From positions 38,195,375-38,259,374 of the forward strand of contig CAIIXF020000005.1 of assembly GCA_903813345.2 (NCBI GenBank): DNA of 64,000 nucleotides, written 5' to 3'. Under the pieces are notes generated by a model. The model was not told the origin of the DNA. It was given only the letters and a program-made list of their open reading frames with translations, and ran no database searches. Positions 1,431 to 33,600 of the stretch are shown here, piece by piece. Numbering within the stretch: position 1 is the stretch's first letter; every line of letters starts with the position of its first letter. A program made the position numbers and the translations under genes. This DNA comes from Owenia fusiformis (lineage: Eukaryota; Annelida; Polychaeta; Sabellida; Oweniidae).

Positions 1431-3070
1431 GTTTATAAATACTTATATTTTCATCAGCGGGCAGATATAGCTAATGTCCCTGCCCGAGAGGGCAGATATA
1501 TTACACCTGCCCACTAAGTCATAATCATCATTTGTGTATGATTAGCAATGAGGGAAGTAGCATACTTAATACATATGTTAATAATCAATGATTCGAGAAT
1601 ATGTGGATGAATACTTAAAAAAACAGGAGAATCCTCCTAAGGCCAAGAAAACAAAATTAGTCATGAATACATTCATGTGGTTGTATTCTCTCTAACTCTG
1701 GCCAATTGAACAATGTGAACCAGATAAGAAAGATTGATATGGGATAAACAGATAATCCTATATAGGTCAGTTCATGCTATTAGGATTATCCCTTGGCAAA
1801 TATAATATATCTTCCCTCAGGACCTAAGGCCTTTGGCCAATAGAAAATATCTTCCCTCGGGACCTAAGAACCTCGACCAGATATATTATATTGGCCTCAA
1901 GTTAATTCCAATACCCTGAACCTCATAGAGGATAATCTTCGTCTTCATCAATTATTATTATACATATAAATCGGGATATAAATATAACCTAAAGTAAGAA
2001 ATCACATTCTCTAACCAGTAATATATAATTTTAAAATTGGTAAATGATGATTATGTCACAATAGAATTGATGACCATGATTTATTTGAGAATAAAACAGA
2101 CAAAACAAAGGCTAACAAAAATCTTTAAAAATTTGGGTAAAACATAAATATTTTAAAATTGCTTGTTTTTCATCATTATTACTTCCATCTCCAAACCCCA
2201 AAAATTGAGTGTTACAAATTGTTTCAAGTTAAAGTATGCCTAATTTCATGAGCAAACTAGTAATCTTGTTGGATATTTTTCCTCGACAATGCCTTATCTA
2301 ATTCATCTATATACAAACTACTATATTCCAAATGCTATTTTACAGGATGGGTGTTCATGAAAGTAACACTAAACATCAGTTTTGTCATAAACTGAACAAT
2401 GCAGCTAACTGATTATCCCATCTAAGCAACAGAGCCTCTTTTAATATATTGTAATTTCAAAATTGCCTCTAATGAAGTTCTTCAATCAAATCTAAAATGG
2501 ACACAACTGGTAATATCTTTATACCATATGAGTAGAATGTTTGTTTCTTTCAAATTCATGCTTTCGTTAGAAACATGGATATCACTAATTCATAGTTTTG
2601 ATTCATATTTAAAATGGTGTGCATTATATATGAGGTTTAATTAATGGGAAGTTTTTAATACAGGGAAATACAATATATCTGAGGGAAATACAATATACCT
2701 CCCCTAAGGGGTTGAGGGTAGAATATTGTATTTCCCAAGGGTTATATCTTGTACCCAAAATTATTTATCATATACTAATATACGAAAATATGAGAAATTG
2801 CACAGAATGAAATTCCTGCAGGGGATTACTGAGCGGGTGATAAACCTGGCGATACATAGAGATTATCCTATATGAGGTTCAGGATATTGGAACTATCCCG
2901 ATTCAAATATAATATATCTGCCCAAGGGCGATTATGACGGAGTGGGCAGATATACTATATCTGCCCGCTCGCAACAGAACGTAAAGCTATATCTGCCCGC
3001 TGATGAGTACATAAGTTTTTACAAACCTGCTTTATGTACCTGAAACACGACCAAGTATGGGATAAATAGG

Positions 3071-3212
3071 GGTTATGCACTGGGAGGTTTTGGATACAGG
3101 GAATATCCCGAGGGATATACAATATATCTTCCCGAGGGACCGAAGGGACCGAGGGAAGATGTATTGTATATCCCAAGGGATATTCCATGTATCCAAACCG
3201 ACCGTGCATAAC
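3071..3212. repeat. About 140-bp imperfect hairpin
   Basis: GGTTATGCAC and TTTGGATACAGGGAATATCC on the left arm match the reverse complement of the right arm ending GTGCATAAC; the centre is CCGAAGGGACCGA. Confidence 0.75.
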
Positions 3213-3217
3213 TGGTG

Positions 3218-3557
3218 TATCTCATACTTGAGTGGGTTTAGGGTAGATATAACCTTTTCCACCTTTTTCAGATGACAAGATATTTATATTGAACATTTTC
3301 GTAATATTCTTTTTGTTCAATACAATGAAATTGTAACATTTAAACTTAAAAAAAATTAATTTTAAAATTAAAAAATTAAAAGTTTTGATATTTAAACTTT
3401 TTTAAATTTTTGAAAAATTCCCGGGAGCGGGATGGATATATTATATCTGCCCGCATTTGGCCTGGAGCGGGACATATACAATATATCCTGCCCGCTCCTC
3501 AGATACGATATATATTCCCGGGTGATATCTACCCCAAACCCACTCAAGTATGAGATA
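3218..3557. repeat. Inverted pair around a TA-rich spacer
   Basis: TCTCATACTTGAGTGGGTTT at about 3220 is repeated in reverse complement at about 3535-3557 (ACCCACTCAAGTATGAGA). Confidence 0.75.
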
Positions 3558-4510
3558 CAGCGGGATATGCAGTACATGTATATCCCCACTCACCTAAGGT
3601 ATCAATTATATTCATGCATTTTATTTACCTATAACACTAAGTATAGGATAAATAACTTTTACTGACAAATTATATAAGTGCATGATTACATTAGTCACAA
3701 CTACTCACTAAAAGGTTAACTTATTGCATGAAGAAATGTAATTCTTCATGAAGATTTCAAATATGATATCACTTATTTGACTGAATTTTGAATTTTTAAT
3801 GATGTAAAGCAAGATTATTTCTACTTGCATCTAAGTCTATTTCATTGTATAAGTCAACAATTAATAAGGCAAATACATATCACTGGCTTCCCTGATTCAT
3901 TTAGATTCCTTGCACTTTTAAAATCATCAATAATTCATATAGGGTTGAACTATCGAATAATGAAAACGTTGCAAATGATGTGATAGAAGTTTTTATACTA
4001 TTTAGCTTGGAAATATTGCTGATATAGTTTTAATGTGATTTTAGGAGATTAAATGTTCTACTGAGGAACTTTGATTATGTTCAATTTTCTATGATCTTTA
4101 ACTTTCTGAAAAAGGTTGTGCTAAATTCTCATTGAGACGATGTTAAAAATCTTAATGTTGACTTCCTAAATGTTGAATTCTTTTGATTGTCATGAATTTA
4201 AGGTTCACACAAAATCTGAAGATCATCTAGTTTCAAACACAATCTGAATCTCATTAAGTTTGATGCGAAAGCAGTTTTACTTTAATCCAAAATAACAAGT
4301 ATGGTAAATCAATATGTGTCTATGGTAGATGCTAGCGTGTAGTCCAACCAGCACAAGTGCTGCCATCTACCTATCCATTCATCAGTTTAGCACCTAATAA
4401 GGTCAGTACTCATGGTAAAGCTTTTGTACCTTGTCTATGGTAAAAATAAATCAAACAGAAATGTTAACTTGACACGATTGGTAATGCCCACCTTGAAGCA
4501 TATAGGGATA

Positions 4511-4620
4511 AAGGGAAGGGTCAGGATAACACTTATATAAAATATTTAAAGTGTCTAATAATGATAATGAACATATTACAATGTTACACAACATAAGTAG
4601 ATGCTAATTAAATGTCAATT
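4511..4620. repeat. Inverted repeat, right arm (left arm 386-494)
   Basis: Reverse complement of 386-494. The pair brackets 4 kb that carries the palindromic GGGCAGATATA cluster but no gene, so it may be a non-autonomous foldback element. Confidence 0.82.
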
Positions 4621-5382
4621 GTTGGTTTTGTTTAACCGTCGATAAAGCAAGCCTCGTGAGTTCAAAGCTAAACATCAAGTAAGACCACTGTTTCCTCTTA
4701 TCCCATCAGATAAGGCAGACGATACTGGTAAACAGAATCTTGTCAGAATATTGAATGTTTGTTTTTGAAAAATTAGCACAAAGTGTACATAAGAATTGGA
4801 TATATTCACTCTACTACGAGTATACTAAACCCCTAGAATTACATAAGATACTCTGTTTGTCTAATTGCATTGTTTAGTATATTTTTGAAAGTACTGTACC
4901 TTATTAACATCTAACTTTCAACCGATAAACCATTTATAAGGAACAGACAAATAAAAATGAATAACATAATTATTACTAATAAGCCAAACGGGTTGTTTCT
5001 GAACACCAAATGCAAGGTATAGTAGAGTGATATTTATCATATTAAAACAATGGTACATTAATTCACAATTGACACTTAAGGATTAACATAACACAGCTGT
5101 GTAAAAACAGTACATTATCTTCTAGAATATTTCATTCGTCTATGTTTCCATTATAGACTACGGCCCACTCTGATAATTGTAACTCCTTCCTTACATGAAA
5201 GGTTACACATTCCAACATATTTCAAACCATCTGTATGATGATACTAGACACTTTCTGGGTAGTTGGACTTTCTATAGGGGTGGCAGACGGCCCTCAGACC
5301 AATTTATACCCCTACCCCCAAAAAACCATGGGGGTACTTTAATACCACCCAATAAAAAGAATACTAATGCATGTCAGATATT

Positions 5383-27600: not shown

Positions 27601-30600
27601 TCACTTTTTGTCACCCTGAAATATATGAAATGTAAAGCAATTTCAATAAATTTCTCGAAAAACATGCATGTTAATATCATCAGCCTAGCTGTTATTCAGT
27701 TGAATGGAACAATAGTAAAACACAATTTTCACTCAGCATATCCGTTAACAATTATCCTTTATAATAGAGTTTCACAGATATTGTTTTATATATCGATGTT
27801 TCAGTCCACTGACTATTTGCGAACTTTTAGATATCGTATCGTATCGTAACAACACCGTTACCTGATCAGTATTTCGTATCTCCAAATATTTATATGACAA
27901 ATTGTATCGTTCAATGTACCAAATCTGTTTGAAACGATATGCCATATCATGTTCTTTTAATCCAATTAATAAACAAAATATGCTCTATCCGATAAAACAA
28001 AGCACAGGAAATAATGACCTGTCCTATGTAGGTTGACAATTAGAACATATTCGTGGAATATGCCCTTCCATGTAATACAGTACGATTCCGCAATATGAGG
28101 TGTCCGTTGACAAAAAGGACATACATACCCAGAGTATGTGCATATAATTGGTACATATACGAGTCCATAAAATATACCTTACCCTGTAATCTAGCACGAG
28201 TTCAAAAATATGTTATTTCCATCGGAAGAGTCTTCCCCACGTGTTTGTTATCCTCACATTAATACAATACAGCCATAACAGGATATATTCTATGTGTATT
28301 GCTAAACTAGAAATTATCTATGCATATGATTTCAATGCATTAGTATTAAATACGAAATTGTCTTCAACTCTACGTTTTCCAATTATTGCTCTCATATATA
28401 GTATGCCAACGTAAGTATATAATTATACAGCACATTGGAAAGAGTTAAAATTGAGTAAAATTAAACTCTGCATGAGACACATTGTGTGTTAAACAAATGT
28501 TCTTTTTATTAATTTCCTTGGTATTTGAACTTAAGTGGCTGCTAGAATTGGTTAATAGGAGAATATCGATTTATAATGACTCGAACAATGTCCACGTTTG
28601 TACAGTTATTGACTGATAAGTAAAAGGTTAACTGGAGAAATGATTGCTGTTGCAAGTCACAATTTCCTAATTGGTGTCGCATATCTTGGCGAATGTTTTC
28701 ACAAAAATGGTTCCTACGAAGGAGTACTACATTGTATACAGCAGAGAGACCAAACATTTTGAGGACATGTAACGACACTGCTGAAACATGACACGATAAT
28801 TTAAAGTCATATTGTTTAAGAAGCGATATCTGAGTGAGTCACAGAGGTGATCATATATATATCTCATTGTCATTATCTCATTGTCATTATCTCATTGCCA
28901 TAATTCAATTGTCATTATCTAATTGATTGTCATTATCTCATCGTCATTATCACATTGATTGTCATTATCTCATTGTCATTATCTCATTGCCATTATCTCA
29001 TTGTCATTATCTCATAGCCATTATTTCATTGTCATTATCTCATTGATTGTAATTATCTAATTGCCATTATCTCATTGATTGTTATCATCTCATTGTCCTT
29101 ATCCCATTGATTGTCATCATCTCATTGTCATTATCTCATTGTCATTATCTCATTGCCATTATCTCATTGTCATAATCTCATTGCCATTATCTCATTGCCA
29201 TGATTTAATTGTCATTATCTTATTGTCATTATCTCATAGCCATTATCTCATTGTCATTATCTCATTGCCATTATCTCATTGTCATTATCGCATAGCCATT
29301 ATTTATTTGTCATTATCTCATGGATTGTAATTATCTCATCGCCATTATCTCATTGATTGTTATTATCTCATTGTCATTACCTCATTGTCATAATCTCATT
29401 GATTGTTATTATCTCATTGTCATTATCTCATTGATTGTCATTATCTCATTGTCATTATCTCATTGCCATTATCTCATTGTCATTATATCATTGCCATTAT
29501 CTCATTGTCATTATCTCATTGTCATTATCGCATAGCCATTATTTAATTCTCATTATCTCATGGATTGTAATTATCTCATCGCCATTATCTCATTGATTGT
29601 TATTATCTCATTGTCATTATCTCATTGTCATAATCTCATTGATTGTCATTATCTCATTGTCATTATCTAAAAGCCATTATCTCATTGTCATTATCTCATT
29701 GCCATTATTTCATTGTCATTATCTCATAGCCATTATTTCATTGCCATTATCTCATTGATTGTAATTATATCATTACCATTATCTCATTGATTGTCATTAT
29801 CTCATTGTCATTTTCTCATTGATTGTCATTATCTCATTGCCATTATCTTATTAGCATTATCTCATGACATGAATACATATCCATGGGTGTGGTAAAGTAT
29901 GAGGCAGGCGATGCAATTGCCTCATACTATTCCCCTTTAACTGAAATTGCCTCGCCAATTTGAAATTGCCTTACATATAAAAAATTTGCCTCGTTTTCAA
30001 GGGCCAAGCCCTTGATATCCCCTTATTTACATGCAAATCCGTTGAACAATCCGCTCATTCATATGCACTCTCTATATGCCTGATGATAGTATTGTCTTCA
30101 CTTACCCTTAAAAGGCATAAGAACCTCTGTGGTGAGATTCCGCTCTGACTCGCCTTGAAAGAACGTAATATTCTGCTTGGCTCTCAGTGCCGCCAAACAA
30201 TTGTAAATTGGAAAATAATGAACTCCATCAACGGTTCCTCCCTTGAAGAAATGTTTCCCCATCGGAACAATGGAGATCTGTAAGGCGGGAGATGAAACAA
30301 CAATTAAGTCAGTGGGATATTTCAATTCAAGAATGGCAGTGTCTGATAGGAGCACACTTGGAGAGAGAAAGACAATCTTAAACACTTAAAACTGTCCACC
30401 GAAAAAGCGACATCTTTTGAACGAGTTGATGTTTTAATAAGGACAATGGAACTTGGTGCAAATAAATGAAGTAATGATCTCAGGGTACAGTCTATATACA
30501 AGACGCCATCTTTAATGTAATATATAAATTTTCTGAGGTTATAAAAGTTCCTTGATACTCTAACAATGAATGTCATCGCTGTACCTTTTGATACTCACTT

Positions 30601-33600
30601 ATGTATAAGTTTCTTTAAGATACAAATAATGATACCTCTACAAGTGTCTTCTTAATTATACTCACAAGGAATGCTACAACTACAAGAGGGTTTATGATAC
30701 TCACTGGGGCATAAAGTCCCTTCCATTGTTTGAAATATTTCTCCGCAGCCGTTATAAGCAGGGCCATTTCTACCCAGATAAGCTCCACAGTCTGGCGAAT
30801 TTCTCCGTCCTCCGCGTTGGCTCGCCCTGCTATGTTGAATGACCCATCGTCCAAGAAACAGCATATACACCTAGGGAAAGGGGAGACGGGGTCAAGGTTC
30901 ATGTCACTTCGACTTTTTCATTTGTACAATGAAATGCGATATTTACATTGCATGTGTATTTACTTGGAATAAAGGCCGACTCAAATATATATAAATTCAA
31001 AACTGGAATATTTTTTTAAATACCTATGCAATCAACTAATAATTTCTGATGTAAATTATACTCTGTCCTTGATTTGTAAATAATAAAAGAAATTGGAGAT
31101 ATATCAGAAGTTCCACCTATTGAGCATTTGGTTCATCAGTCAGGAGTTTCAAAGTCATAAATTTAATTTCTTCAGTATTTGAGATCTTATGCAATATAAT
31201 GTAACCAAATGAAGGGTTATAGCGAATTTTAACTCTAATTTGAACATAGCCATACTTTGAAGAGATCATGAAATTATTGCAAAATCCCATATCAGGCGGC
31301 CATTTTGAATTTTCCCTGAGATGGATAGAGGGATTTATTATACAAAGTTCATCTACTGTACAATTAACACATGATTACTAACCTCGTCTATTCTAGACAA
31401 GACTCCGTTTCTCCAGCAATGTTGATAGTTACAAAATTCGCTGCTGGCACGCTTCACATTAGCTAATGCCCTCAACAGCAGGCCGGGTGGCACCCCTGTT
31501 GGGAAGTCGTAGCGCCAACCAATTTGAAGATCTCCCTTGAATGGCGTCGGTGTCCAGTTCAGTTGCTGCAATATATTTAAGGCAATTTCGAACTGTTTTT
31601 GCCCAATGTGGTCAATATAATATACAAATATCTGCCCTCGGGGTCAATAGCCCTCAGGCAGATATATAATATTAGCCTCGGGATAATCCCAATATCCTGA
31701 ACCTCATATAGGATAATCTCTATATATCTGGGATAAGATTTGGAGAGGGATATTGAATCAACTTACAGGCTTTATATATGGCATTGGGAATCAACTTACA
31801 GGTTTTAAATCTGGCATTAGGTTCATGAGAAGGATGTTGAATCAACTTACAGGTTTTATATCTGGCATTAGGTTCATGAGAAGGATGTTGAATCAACTTA
31901 CAGGTTTTATATCTGGCATTAGGTTCGTGAGAGGGATGTTGAATCAACTTACAGGTTTGTATCTGGCATTAGGTTCATGAGAAGGATGTTGAATCAACTT
32001 ACAGGTTTTATATATGGCAGTGGGAATCAACTTACAGGTTTTAAATCTGGCATTAGGTTCATGAGAAGGATGTTGAATCAACTTACAGGTTTTATATCTG
32101 GCATTAGGTTCATGAGAAGGATGTTGAATCAACTTACAGGTTTTATATCTGGCATTAGGTTCGTGAGAAGGTTGTTGAATCAACTTACAGGTTTTATATC
32201 TGGCATTAGGTTCATGAGAAGGATGTTGAATCAACTTACAGGTTTTATATCTGGCTTTAGGTTCATGAGAAGGATGTTGAATCAACTTACGGGTTTAAAA
32301 TCTGGGATTAGGTTCATGAGAGGGATGTTGAATCAATTTACAGGTTTTATATCTGGTATTAGATTCACGAGAAGGATATTGAAGGCTTTATATCTGGCAT
32401 TAGGTTCACGAGAAGGATATTGAAGGCTTTATATCTGGCATTAGGTTCGTAAGAGGGATGTTGAATCAACTTACAGGTTTTATATCTGGTATTAGATTCA
32501 CGAGAAGGATATTGAAGGCTTTATATCTGGCATTAGGTTCGTAAGAGGGATGTTGAATCAACTTACAGGTTTTAAATCTGGTATTAGGTTCATGAGAAGG
32601 ATATTGAAGGCTTTATATCTGGCATTACTGTAGGTTCGTGAGAAGGATGTTGAATCAACTTACAGGTTTTATATCTGGCATTAGGTTCATGAGAAGGATG
32701 TTGAATCAACTTACAGGTTTTATATCTGGCATTAGGTTCATGAGAGGGATGTTGAATCAATTTACAGGTTTTATATCTGGAAGTGGGAATCAACTTACAG
32801 GTTTTATATCTGGCATTAGGTTCATGAGAGGGATGTTGAATCAATTTACAGGTTTTATATCTGGCAGTGGGAATCAACTTACAGGTTTTATATCTGGCAT
32901 TAGGTTCATGAGAGGGATGTTGAATCAATTTACAGGTTTTATATCTGGCAGTGGGAATCAACTTACAGGTCTTATATCTGGCAGTGGGAATCAACTTACA
33001 GGTTTTATATCTGGCATTAGGTTCGTGAGAGGGGTGTTGGATCAACTTACAGGTTTTATATCTGGTATTATATTCATGAGAAGGATATATTGAAGGCTTA
33101 ATATCTGGCATTAGGTTCGTGAGGAGGGTATCGAATCAACTTACAGGTTTTATATCTGGCATTAGGTTCATGAGAGGGATGTAATATCTTGACTGTGTGC
33201 TGAGAGACTTGAAATGGGGCAATGCCAAGCCCTTGGTGGGAGTCTTTGAAGCTTCAGCCTTGGACAACAGACTCAATCTCCCAAGAGTTTCCACCATCAG
33301 AACAGCTTGCTCATCTGTTATGTTGAAATCCTATAAAAAGTATTCATAAATTGTTTCACATTTCATTTACATAAAGGTGTTGATGAAGACCGAGAAAAAC
33401 CAAAAATTAAATGCAAAAACATAATATGCCAAAATCTAAATGAGTATTCTTCCTGTATGTAATATTACTCCACTCTACATTAGCACTTTAAAGATAAGAA
33501 TGTAATTTGCATCTTATATGATATACACTTAGTCTAGCTCTTACCTGCCATATGAGAGGCAGCAGTGACATCCTAACAAGCCCCTCTAGAGGGATTTCTT

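Follow-up and report, generated by a model that had tools for sequence, protein, structure and literature searches.

Amplification of an exon 5' splice site into an intronic minisatellite in a Roco gene of the annelid Owenia fusiformis

The 5' splice site of exon 11 of a Roco gene in the annelid Owenia fusiformis has been amplified into a minisatellite that begins inside the exon and fills the following intron. The gene is encoded on the minus strand of the window analysed here, i.e., a stretch of 64 kb (contig CAIIXF020000005.1, positions 38,195,375 to 38,259,374), in whose numbering positions of the Roco gene are given. The anatomy of the array, its derivation from the exon, the recurrence of such exon-end arrays within one Owenia genome and the joining of the first donor to exon 12 in the database protein are established. 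It is probable that the array originated from a duplication of the exon 11/intron 11 boundary, that the first donor was kept by exon definition and that the additional copies grew within the intron and drifted as a neutral minisatellite.

The joined exons of the window are 100% identical, over the region searched, to the Owenia fusiformis database protein P0001, which we take to be a product of the published Owenia annotation, and its 12 exons follow in order from 60593 to 31356. The gene product contains leucine-rich repeats, a Roc GTPase domain (Pfam Roc, E 2.3e-16) and a COR region. P0001 itself shows no match to Pfam COR-A/COR-B and two of three homologues match weakly (0.007-0.05); the COR region was aligned behind Roc by profile comparison with five proteins labelled as COR-bearing in the database (99.9%), and the end of exon 11 corresponds in this comparison to the COR-A/COR-B junction. 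The limits of exons 11 and 12 agree with P0001, and an earlier reading made from the letters of this DNA (the sequence-only reading) had numbered them correctly. P0001 joins 33145 to 31565, i.e., the first donor is used in the database protein. For the published annotation RNA-seq was used and 99.29% of the transcripts were reported to be supported (PMC9977687).

The repeated segment comprises the last 38 exonic nucleotides of exon 11 and the first 12-13 nucleotides of intron 11. The array was found independently by Tandem Repeats Finder (TRF), and an in-register cut on the minus strand from 33158 down to 31731 resulted in 31 units, 20 of 50-56 bp (mostly 51), six of 33 bp and five of 41 or 43 bp. 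A donor is present in 26 units, the authentic one included (22 GTAAGT and four GTAAAT), while the five units of 41 or 43 bp lost it by a 10-bp deletion; the minus strand of the window contains 38 GTAAGT hexamers, 22 of which are located in intron 11. This agrees with the sequence-only reading, which had counted the exon end and its donor about 26 times. It needs to be corrected slightly in that the repeat starts inside the exon, at 33182, and its last unit (31780-31731) is decayed. The 50-nt core of the founder segment is identical to three intronic copies (Table 1). Among the 20 full-length units the 17 interior ones differ from the consensus at 0-4 positions, six of them at none, and the three edge units differ at 5, 4 and 10, showing that the interior was homogenised and the edges were excluded. 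The 11 short units, left out of this count, show 5-9 differences, partly from variant sequence forced into the alignment. A dispersed repeat was rejected, as all 14 matches of a two-unit consensus among the best candidates scored in the 498-Mb assembly are located within intron 11. As the main period of 51 is a multiple of three, the array is open between 31923 and 33135 for 161-181 codons in three frames on both strands; P0001 contains none of these frames. Most units also carry, by eye, CCAG 11 nt before the donor, from which an 11-nt microexon ATATAAAACCT with its own acceptor is conceivable.

The exonic part of the unit encodes IPLMNLMPDIKP, which aligns gap-free to its counterparts in Lineus (VPLLNLLPDNKP), Haliotis (AVLLDLLPNNRP) and Hypsibius (IPLLGLLADAKP), and in all three it is directly followed by QLNWT, the start of exon 12. 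Exon 11 is accordingly conserved up to P/QLNWT in three other phyla, represented by a nemertean, a gastropod and a tardigrade. The exonic part of the unit is ancestral and the array is derived from the 5' splice site of exon 11, as the sequence-only reading had proposed: the unit unites 38 exonic nucleotides with the intronic donor and the exon is conserved to the splice point. The sequence-only reading had also considered that the conserved COR sequence might end well before the repeat, which is not the case in any of the three phyla. The identity of exon end and array copies over 50 nt would equally be expected if the minisatellite had been there first and the exon end had been taken from it by exonisation. 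This reverse order is hardly conceivable, because the exon end is conserved in Lineus, Haliotis and Hypsibius and leads straight into QLNWT.

The choice of donor decides about the protein. Splicing from the first donor leads the frame into exon 12, as is the case in P0001, whereas from any of the 25 later donors the message reads GTA AGT TGA and stops; both had been predicted from the letters, and the second was verified for all 25. The TGA then is located 85-1369 nt upstream of the junction, exceeding in all 25 cases the 50-55 nt rule of nonsense-mediated decay. It was reported that among competing 5' splice sites of similar strength the upstream one is preferred under exon definition, that in minigenes with two identical CAG/guaagu sites the one closest to the upstream 3' splice site is favoured, and that this bias is stronger if the upstream intron is short and the downstream one long (PMC9225289). 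The intron upstream of exon 11 has 214 nt, the downstream one 1579 nt.

We therefore suggest the following course of events, which would have started with a short tandem duplication over the exon 11/intron 11 boundary, placing a second exon end and donor in the intron. The extra copy would have been tolerated because the spliceosome still used the first donor, and unequal exchange or slippage would probably have led to growth to 31 units within the intron. Exon 11, having only 186 nt and the long intron downstream, would be recognised across itself with the donor nearest to its 3' splice site being favoured, and normal splicing would continue because exon definition favours copy one. Leakage to later copies would result in a stop and the products would presumably be removed by nonsense-mediated decay. 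Arrays begun at exon boundaries may survive in this way because the extra copies fall into the intron. That the first donor is chosen in vivo is suggested by P0001 and by analogy with the cited work on exon definition.

Three roles had been left open by the sequence-only reading, namely a sponge for U1 snRNP, a source of aborted transcripts and a neutral array. The donor shows no significant extra conservation among the array units: when the 20 full-length units are compared, variation affects 2 of 12 columns on the donor side and 19 of 39 others (p 0.09), and without the two edge units 2 of 12 and 11 of 39 (p 0.71). Of 51 windows of 12 columns, 3 are as invariant as the donor window if all units are used and 15 if the edge units are omitted. 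Furthermore, variants that kill the donor were co-amplified, i.e., GTAAAT four times and the donor-deleting 10-bp deletion five times, so such variants spread with the array. Due to both results a sponge and a maintained source of aborted transcripts are unsupported; the array most likely has no function and neutrality is the best of the three options. RNA folding that would hide the donors is not indicated either, as the two array windows analysed do not exceed shuffled sequences in folding (z 0.80 and -0.60).

A regulatory variant of the second role would be a poison switch, in which occasional use of the 25 later copies leads to a stop and nonsense-mediated decay and thereby tunes the dose of the Roco protein. 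The positions of the TGA would allow this for every later donor, and with a position weight matrix, a small one built from 11 donors of the Roco gene of which one is also CCT/GTAAGT, only 15 of 1508 GT sites outside the array score as high, real donors included. Downstream repeat units are moreover reported to be used as donors in human IFI6 (PMC4526556). We nevertheless consider such a switch unlikely, given the lack of significant donor conservation, the amplification of four GTAAAT donors and five donor-less units, and the database cluster of P0001, which has one member and no second isoform. Far less probable still is that the array titrates U1 or holds it on the intron as a shield against premature polyadenylation, although the 22 GTAAGT within 1.58 kb and the 23 places of intron 11 with TATAAA, a hexamer weakly resembling a polyadenylation signal, could be brought forward for it. 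For CCT/GTAAGTTG the duplex energy is -5.4 kcal/mol, and the four GTAAAT copies have -1.6, compared to -4.5 to -11.7 kcal/mol for 11 other Roco donors, which places the array donors at the weak end, and the lack of significant donor conservation argues against this role as well. As U1 is very abundant, its titration by one intron is hardly possible. An artefact with a copy number inflated or collapsed by the assembler would have to be considered, since tandem arrays are hard to assemble; it is very improbable, because an assembler would hardly invent the substitutions that many units carry of their own and three length classes in ordered alternation, and similar arrays are present at other loci.

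Several points weigh against a boundary duplication followed by exon definition and neutral drift. When human events are not matched for strength, about 60% of them favour the downstream site, and the older rule of Reed and Maniatis states that the intron-proximal site wins (both in PMC9225289); this rule would predict the last copy of the Roco array. The comparison in PMC9225289 is one between two sites and not 26. P0001 is a predicted protein that is truncated at its 3' end and its junctions are no proof. Only the innermost pair of splice sites yields an intact protein, and protein selection alone could account for the location of the intact exon within this pair. Finally, the five donor losses could also reflect mild selection against decoys, and the donor window ranks as one of the three most invariant of 51 when the edge units are counted.

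Exon-end arrays recur within the Owenia genome. It was queried for three exact copies of a donor nonamer at distances of 20-50 nt. For AAGGTAAGT this resulted in 92 places in 12 array loci, all of which were read, and in eight of them the first donor ends a coding exon supported by databases. Pfam supports UGDH, FANCI, an Ig domain, CRIPT and SFT2, and further supported exons belong to NCS-1, an ABCC5-like transporter and a ubiquitin hydrolase (UCH, E 2.3e-8). For NCS-1 the exon of the first donor and the next exon give an unbroken alignment (E 7.5e-30), and for the ABCC5-like transporter the first-donor join (4.2e-26) contains one one-residue gap at the junction, the acceptor not being fixed. 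Three of the other four loci are without exon and one is DIP2-like by reading only, its join matching nothing in PDB at 1e-3 and fitting no Pfam family. CAGGTAAGT was found in 141 places; among those listed there are 11 array loci, which were read as 650-base edges. Here five exons are supported (NIF phosphatase, kringle, an 'Il2rg' family protein, a methyltransferase and PP2A B56), five were assigned by reading only (one with p85 iSH2 at 0.043) and one locus is without exon. At the methyltransferase locus (L045) the array begins 87 nt beyond the donor of the exon, and its unit is a diverged copy that agrees at 15 of 17 bases, a match reached by 0 of 500 shuffles. Six further loci, hand-picked from the first listed places of a GTAAGT search, contributed one supported exon (Muted, 5.9e-15), two weak ones (a tetraspanin at 0.058 and, by reading, L012) and three without support. 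Including the Roco gene this amounts to 30 donor arrays, 15 of them supported, eight by reading only or weak and seven not. Later donor-like copies number 2 to 56 per locus in the stretches read, these counts being lower bounds at loci read for 650 bases only. For GAGGTAAGT the arrays were listed as places only; one unit reads QLWDTAGQER, which we take to be Rab-like.

In some genes the acceptor side is amplified as well. At the ubiquitin-hydrolase locus L016 (minus strand, offsets 1894-5240) a 143-nt exon is located between two arrays, one with 27 copies of the acceptor and the first exon bases at a spacing of about 81 and one with about 21 copies of the exon end and the donor at a spacing of about 54, in both cases counting the exon's own. 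The last acceptor and the first donor enclose the complete exon and form the innermost pair, whose use is needed for an intact protein and is predicted by exon definition as well as by protein selection. Of nine further loci tested with candidate acceptors (L009, L015, L017, L018, L020-L023 and L025), the UGDH locus L015 (offsets 3527-4307) has seven acceptor-side copies spaced 130 nt apart, ending with one at the exon; two are present at the tetraspanin-like locus L009 and none at the other seven loci. At L017 a second candidate acceptor inside the exon repeats along with the donor array.

A general excess of GTAAGT arrays is not present in the genome, where GTAAGT has 7610 places and the reversed hexamer 7919, which indicates that Owenia is rich in tandem arrays generally. 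The exonic nonamers show an excess of places (92, 141 and 134 compared to 62, 56 and 76), which do not represent counts of arrays since neighbouring places copy one array. As controls, 12 array loci of a reversed nonamer were read as 650-base edges, and Pfam matches below 1e-3 were obtained in 2 of 74 flank frames, corresponding to one or two of the 12 loci. One is L029 (SNF), where the exon ends about 40 bases before the array and the unit aligns only to intron sequence; the other (BROMI) could not be traced in the 20 frames checked. The identical crude procedure gave 4 of 11 loci for the CAG set, which is not different from the controls (Fisher p 0.37). Supported exons at the first donor were found at 12 of 23 loci compared to at most 1 of 12 controls (p 0.013; 13 of 23 with L016), a comparison for which peptides were hand-picked and the sets were known to the analyst. 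Exon-end arrays do not prove that donors are hot spots.

The anatomy of the units was compared for the Roco gene and 19 further loci (n=20; L012, L016, L045 and the seven exon-less loci left out; at L023 the match exceeds the period by one). The exonic part is longer than the intronic part at 17 of 20 loci, averaging 36 nt compared to 11 nt (sign test p 0.0026, Wilcoxon 0.0002). If breakpoints were random, an even split would be expected, and the exonic excess seems to place the downstream breakpoint near the donor, which we regard as a lead and not as a result. AAGT is common to the exon-side breakpoint and the donor GTAAGT at L039, L044 and L047, as if the donor had served as microhomology. 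Over all loci, with the Roco gene, L015 and L048 scored at spacings other than the main period, such microhomology amounts to a weak 2.0 compared to 1.57 of 6 (p 0.04). We tentatively suggest, as a possibility that may well fail, that exon boundaries in many genes of Owenia are recurrent seeds of minisatellites, at times at both ends of an exon, that the innermost pair of sites is always picked, and that the donor may help to set the breakpoint because the units are mostly exonic with a short intronic tail just past it.

Arrays of this kind are already known. In amphioxus the name 'mirages' was given to tandemly repeated exon-intron boundaries, which are present in Adh3, TnC, the globins BflGb6 and BflGb9 and PGBD5, and regular splicing was reported to be undisturbed (PMC3087553, PMC3902484). 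As in the Roco array, with donors in 26 of 31 units, mirage units contain splice signals and edge units escape homogenisation, and BflGb9 duplicates the 3' boundary of exon 2 as the Roco array does for exon 11. In contrast, Owenia belongs to another phylum, its Roco array contains 26 donors compared to 3 and 6 units in two BflGb6 haplotypes, and its unit has 51 bp compared to 150-160 bp in the amphioxus globins and 10-72 bp in Adh3. Arrays flank both sides of one Owenia exon, whereas in the globins 5' and 3' boundaries are reported to be repeated in different genes. No description of annelid arrays of this kind was among the papers listed for the open-licence literature searched; as far as this literature goes the phylum is new, as is the recurrence in one genome.

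Introns are said to be gained by tandem genomic duplication of AGGT-bearing exon sequence, which creates extra splice sites. The Roco array likewise has extra splice sites around coding sequence, but it lengthens an intron. Turri et al. are said to have described in 1995 that the minisatellite of human IFI6 (6-16, G1P3) gives many donor sites to one transcript. This resembles Roco intron 11 in having a minisatellite with many donors in one gene; in IFI6, however, donor use is reported for two downstream repeat units (PMC4526556), whereas P0001 uses only the first. Internal tandem repeats at exon-intron boundaries also change gene structure in human segmental duplications, which differ in being young paralogues and where for 66% of intron changes a transcript with the repeat kept in the exon is reported as well (PMC2812944).

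The arrays extend the mirage phenomenon to annelids and represent a natural test of how a cell chooses among identical splice signals. If the proposed course is correct, the Owenia genome would constitute a natural series for testing exon definition, with 26 donors in series in the Roco gene, most of them behind an identical exon stretch, and other genes with their own arrays. Use of the innermost sites only would support cross-exon proximity over intron proximity in vivo, with competitors far beyond the two of PMC9225289. If use is graded with copy number, position or expression, the arrays would show how often splice-site choice errs. RNA-seq data resolved by stage are publicly available for Owenia (PMC9977687).

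Table 1. Features of the Roco gene and its intron 11 array (window coordinates), and further loci
Feature	Position	Strand	Remarks
Exon 11 of the Roco gene	33145..33330	-	186 nt, ends ...YYIPLMNLMPDIKP, phase 0; matches P0001
Authentic 5' splice site CCT/GTAAGT	33139..33147	-	first intron base 33144
Intron 11	33144-31566	-	1579 nt
Exon 12	31383..31565	-	acceptor TTGCAG/CAA; P0001 continues to 31356
In-frame TGA after the first donor is skipped	33136..33138	-	reading of the sequence
Minisatellite	31731..33182	-	31 in-register units, mostly 51 bp, also 33 and 41 bp; TRF and in-register cut
Founder segment	33133..33182	-	exon 11 contributes its final 38 nt, the intron its first 12
Intronic exact copy of the 50-nt core	32871..32920	-	starts at 32920; letter-for-letter match
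Intronic exact copy of the 50-nt core	32787..32836	-	starts at 32836; letter-for-letter match
Intronic exact copy of the 50-nt core	32703..32752	-	starts at 32752; letter-for-letter match
43-bp donor-less unit, first of five	33065..33107	-	in-register cut
Other four donor-less units	32621-32581, 32529-32489, 32437-32397, 32396-32356	-	in-register cut
Owenia loci examined	L009-L026, L039-L049		exon-end and donor minisatellites recurrent

Further observations concern the 3' part of the gene. Between the array and the acceptor of exon 12 there is a hairpin with a 10-bp outer stem (31628-31665, minus strand), and a 141-nt stretch at this position folds better than most shuffles (z -2.03). P0001 ends early in intron 12, and AATAAA is located at 31339, just past its annotated stop. 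In the adjoining region (31382-24451, minus strand) homologues match later frames at about 30866-30705, 30280-30106, 25089-24937 and 24621-24451, the last of which has a CAAX-like C-terminal end, CTIL; the canonical junction of exons 12 and 13 is one base out of frame. A second array of about 1 kb (28860-29865) with the 14-bp unit TATCTCATTGTCAT, in which no exon sequence was seen, is located between later Roco exons.
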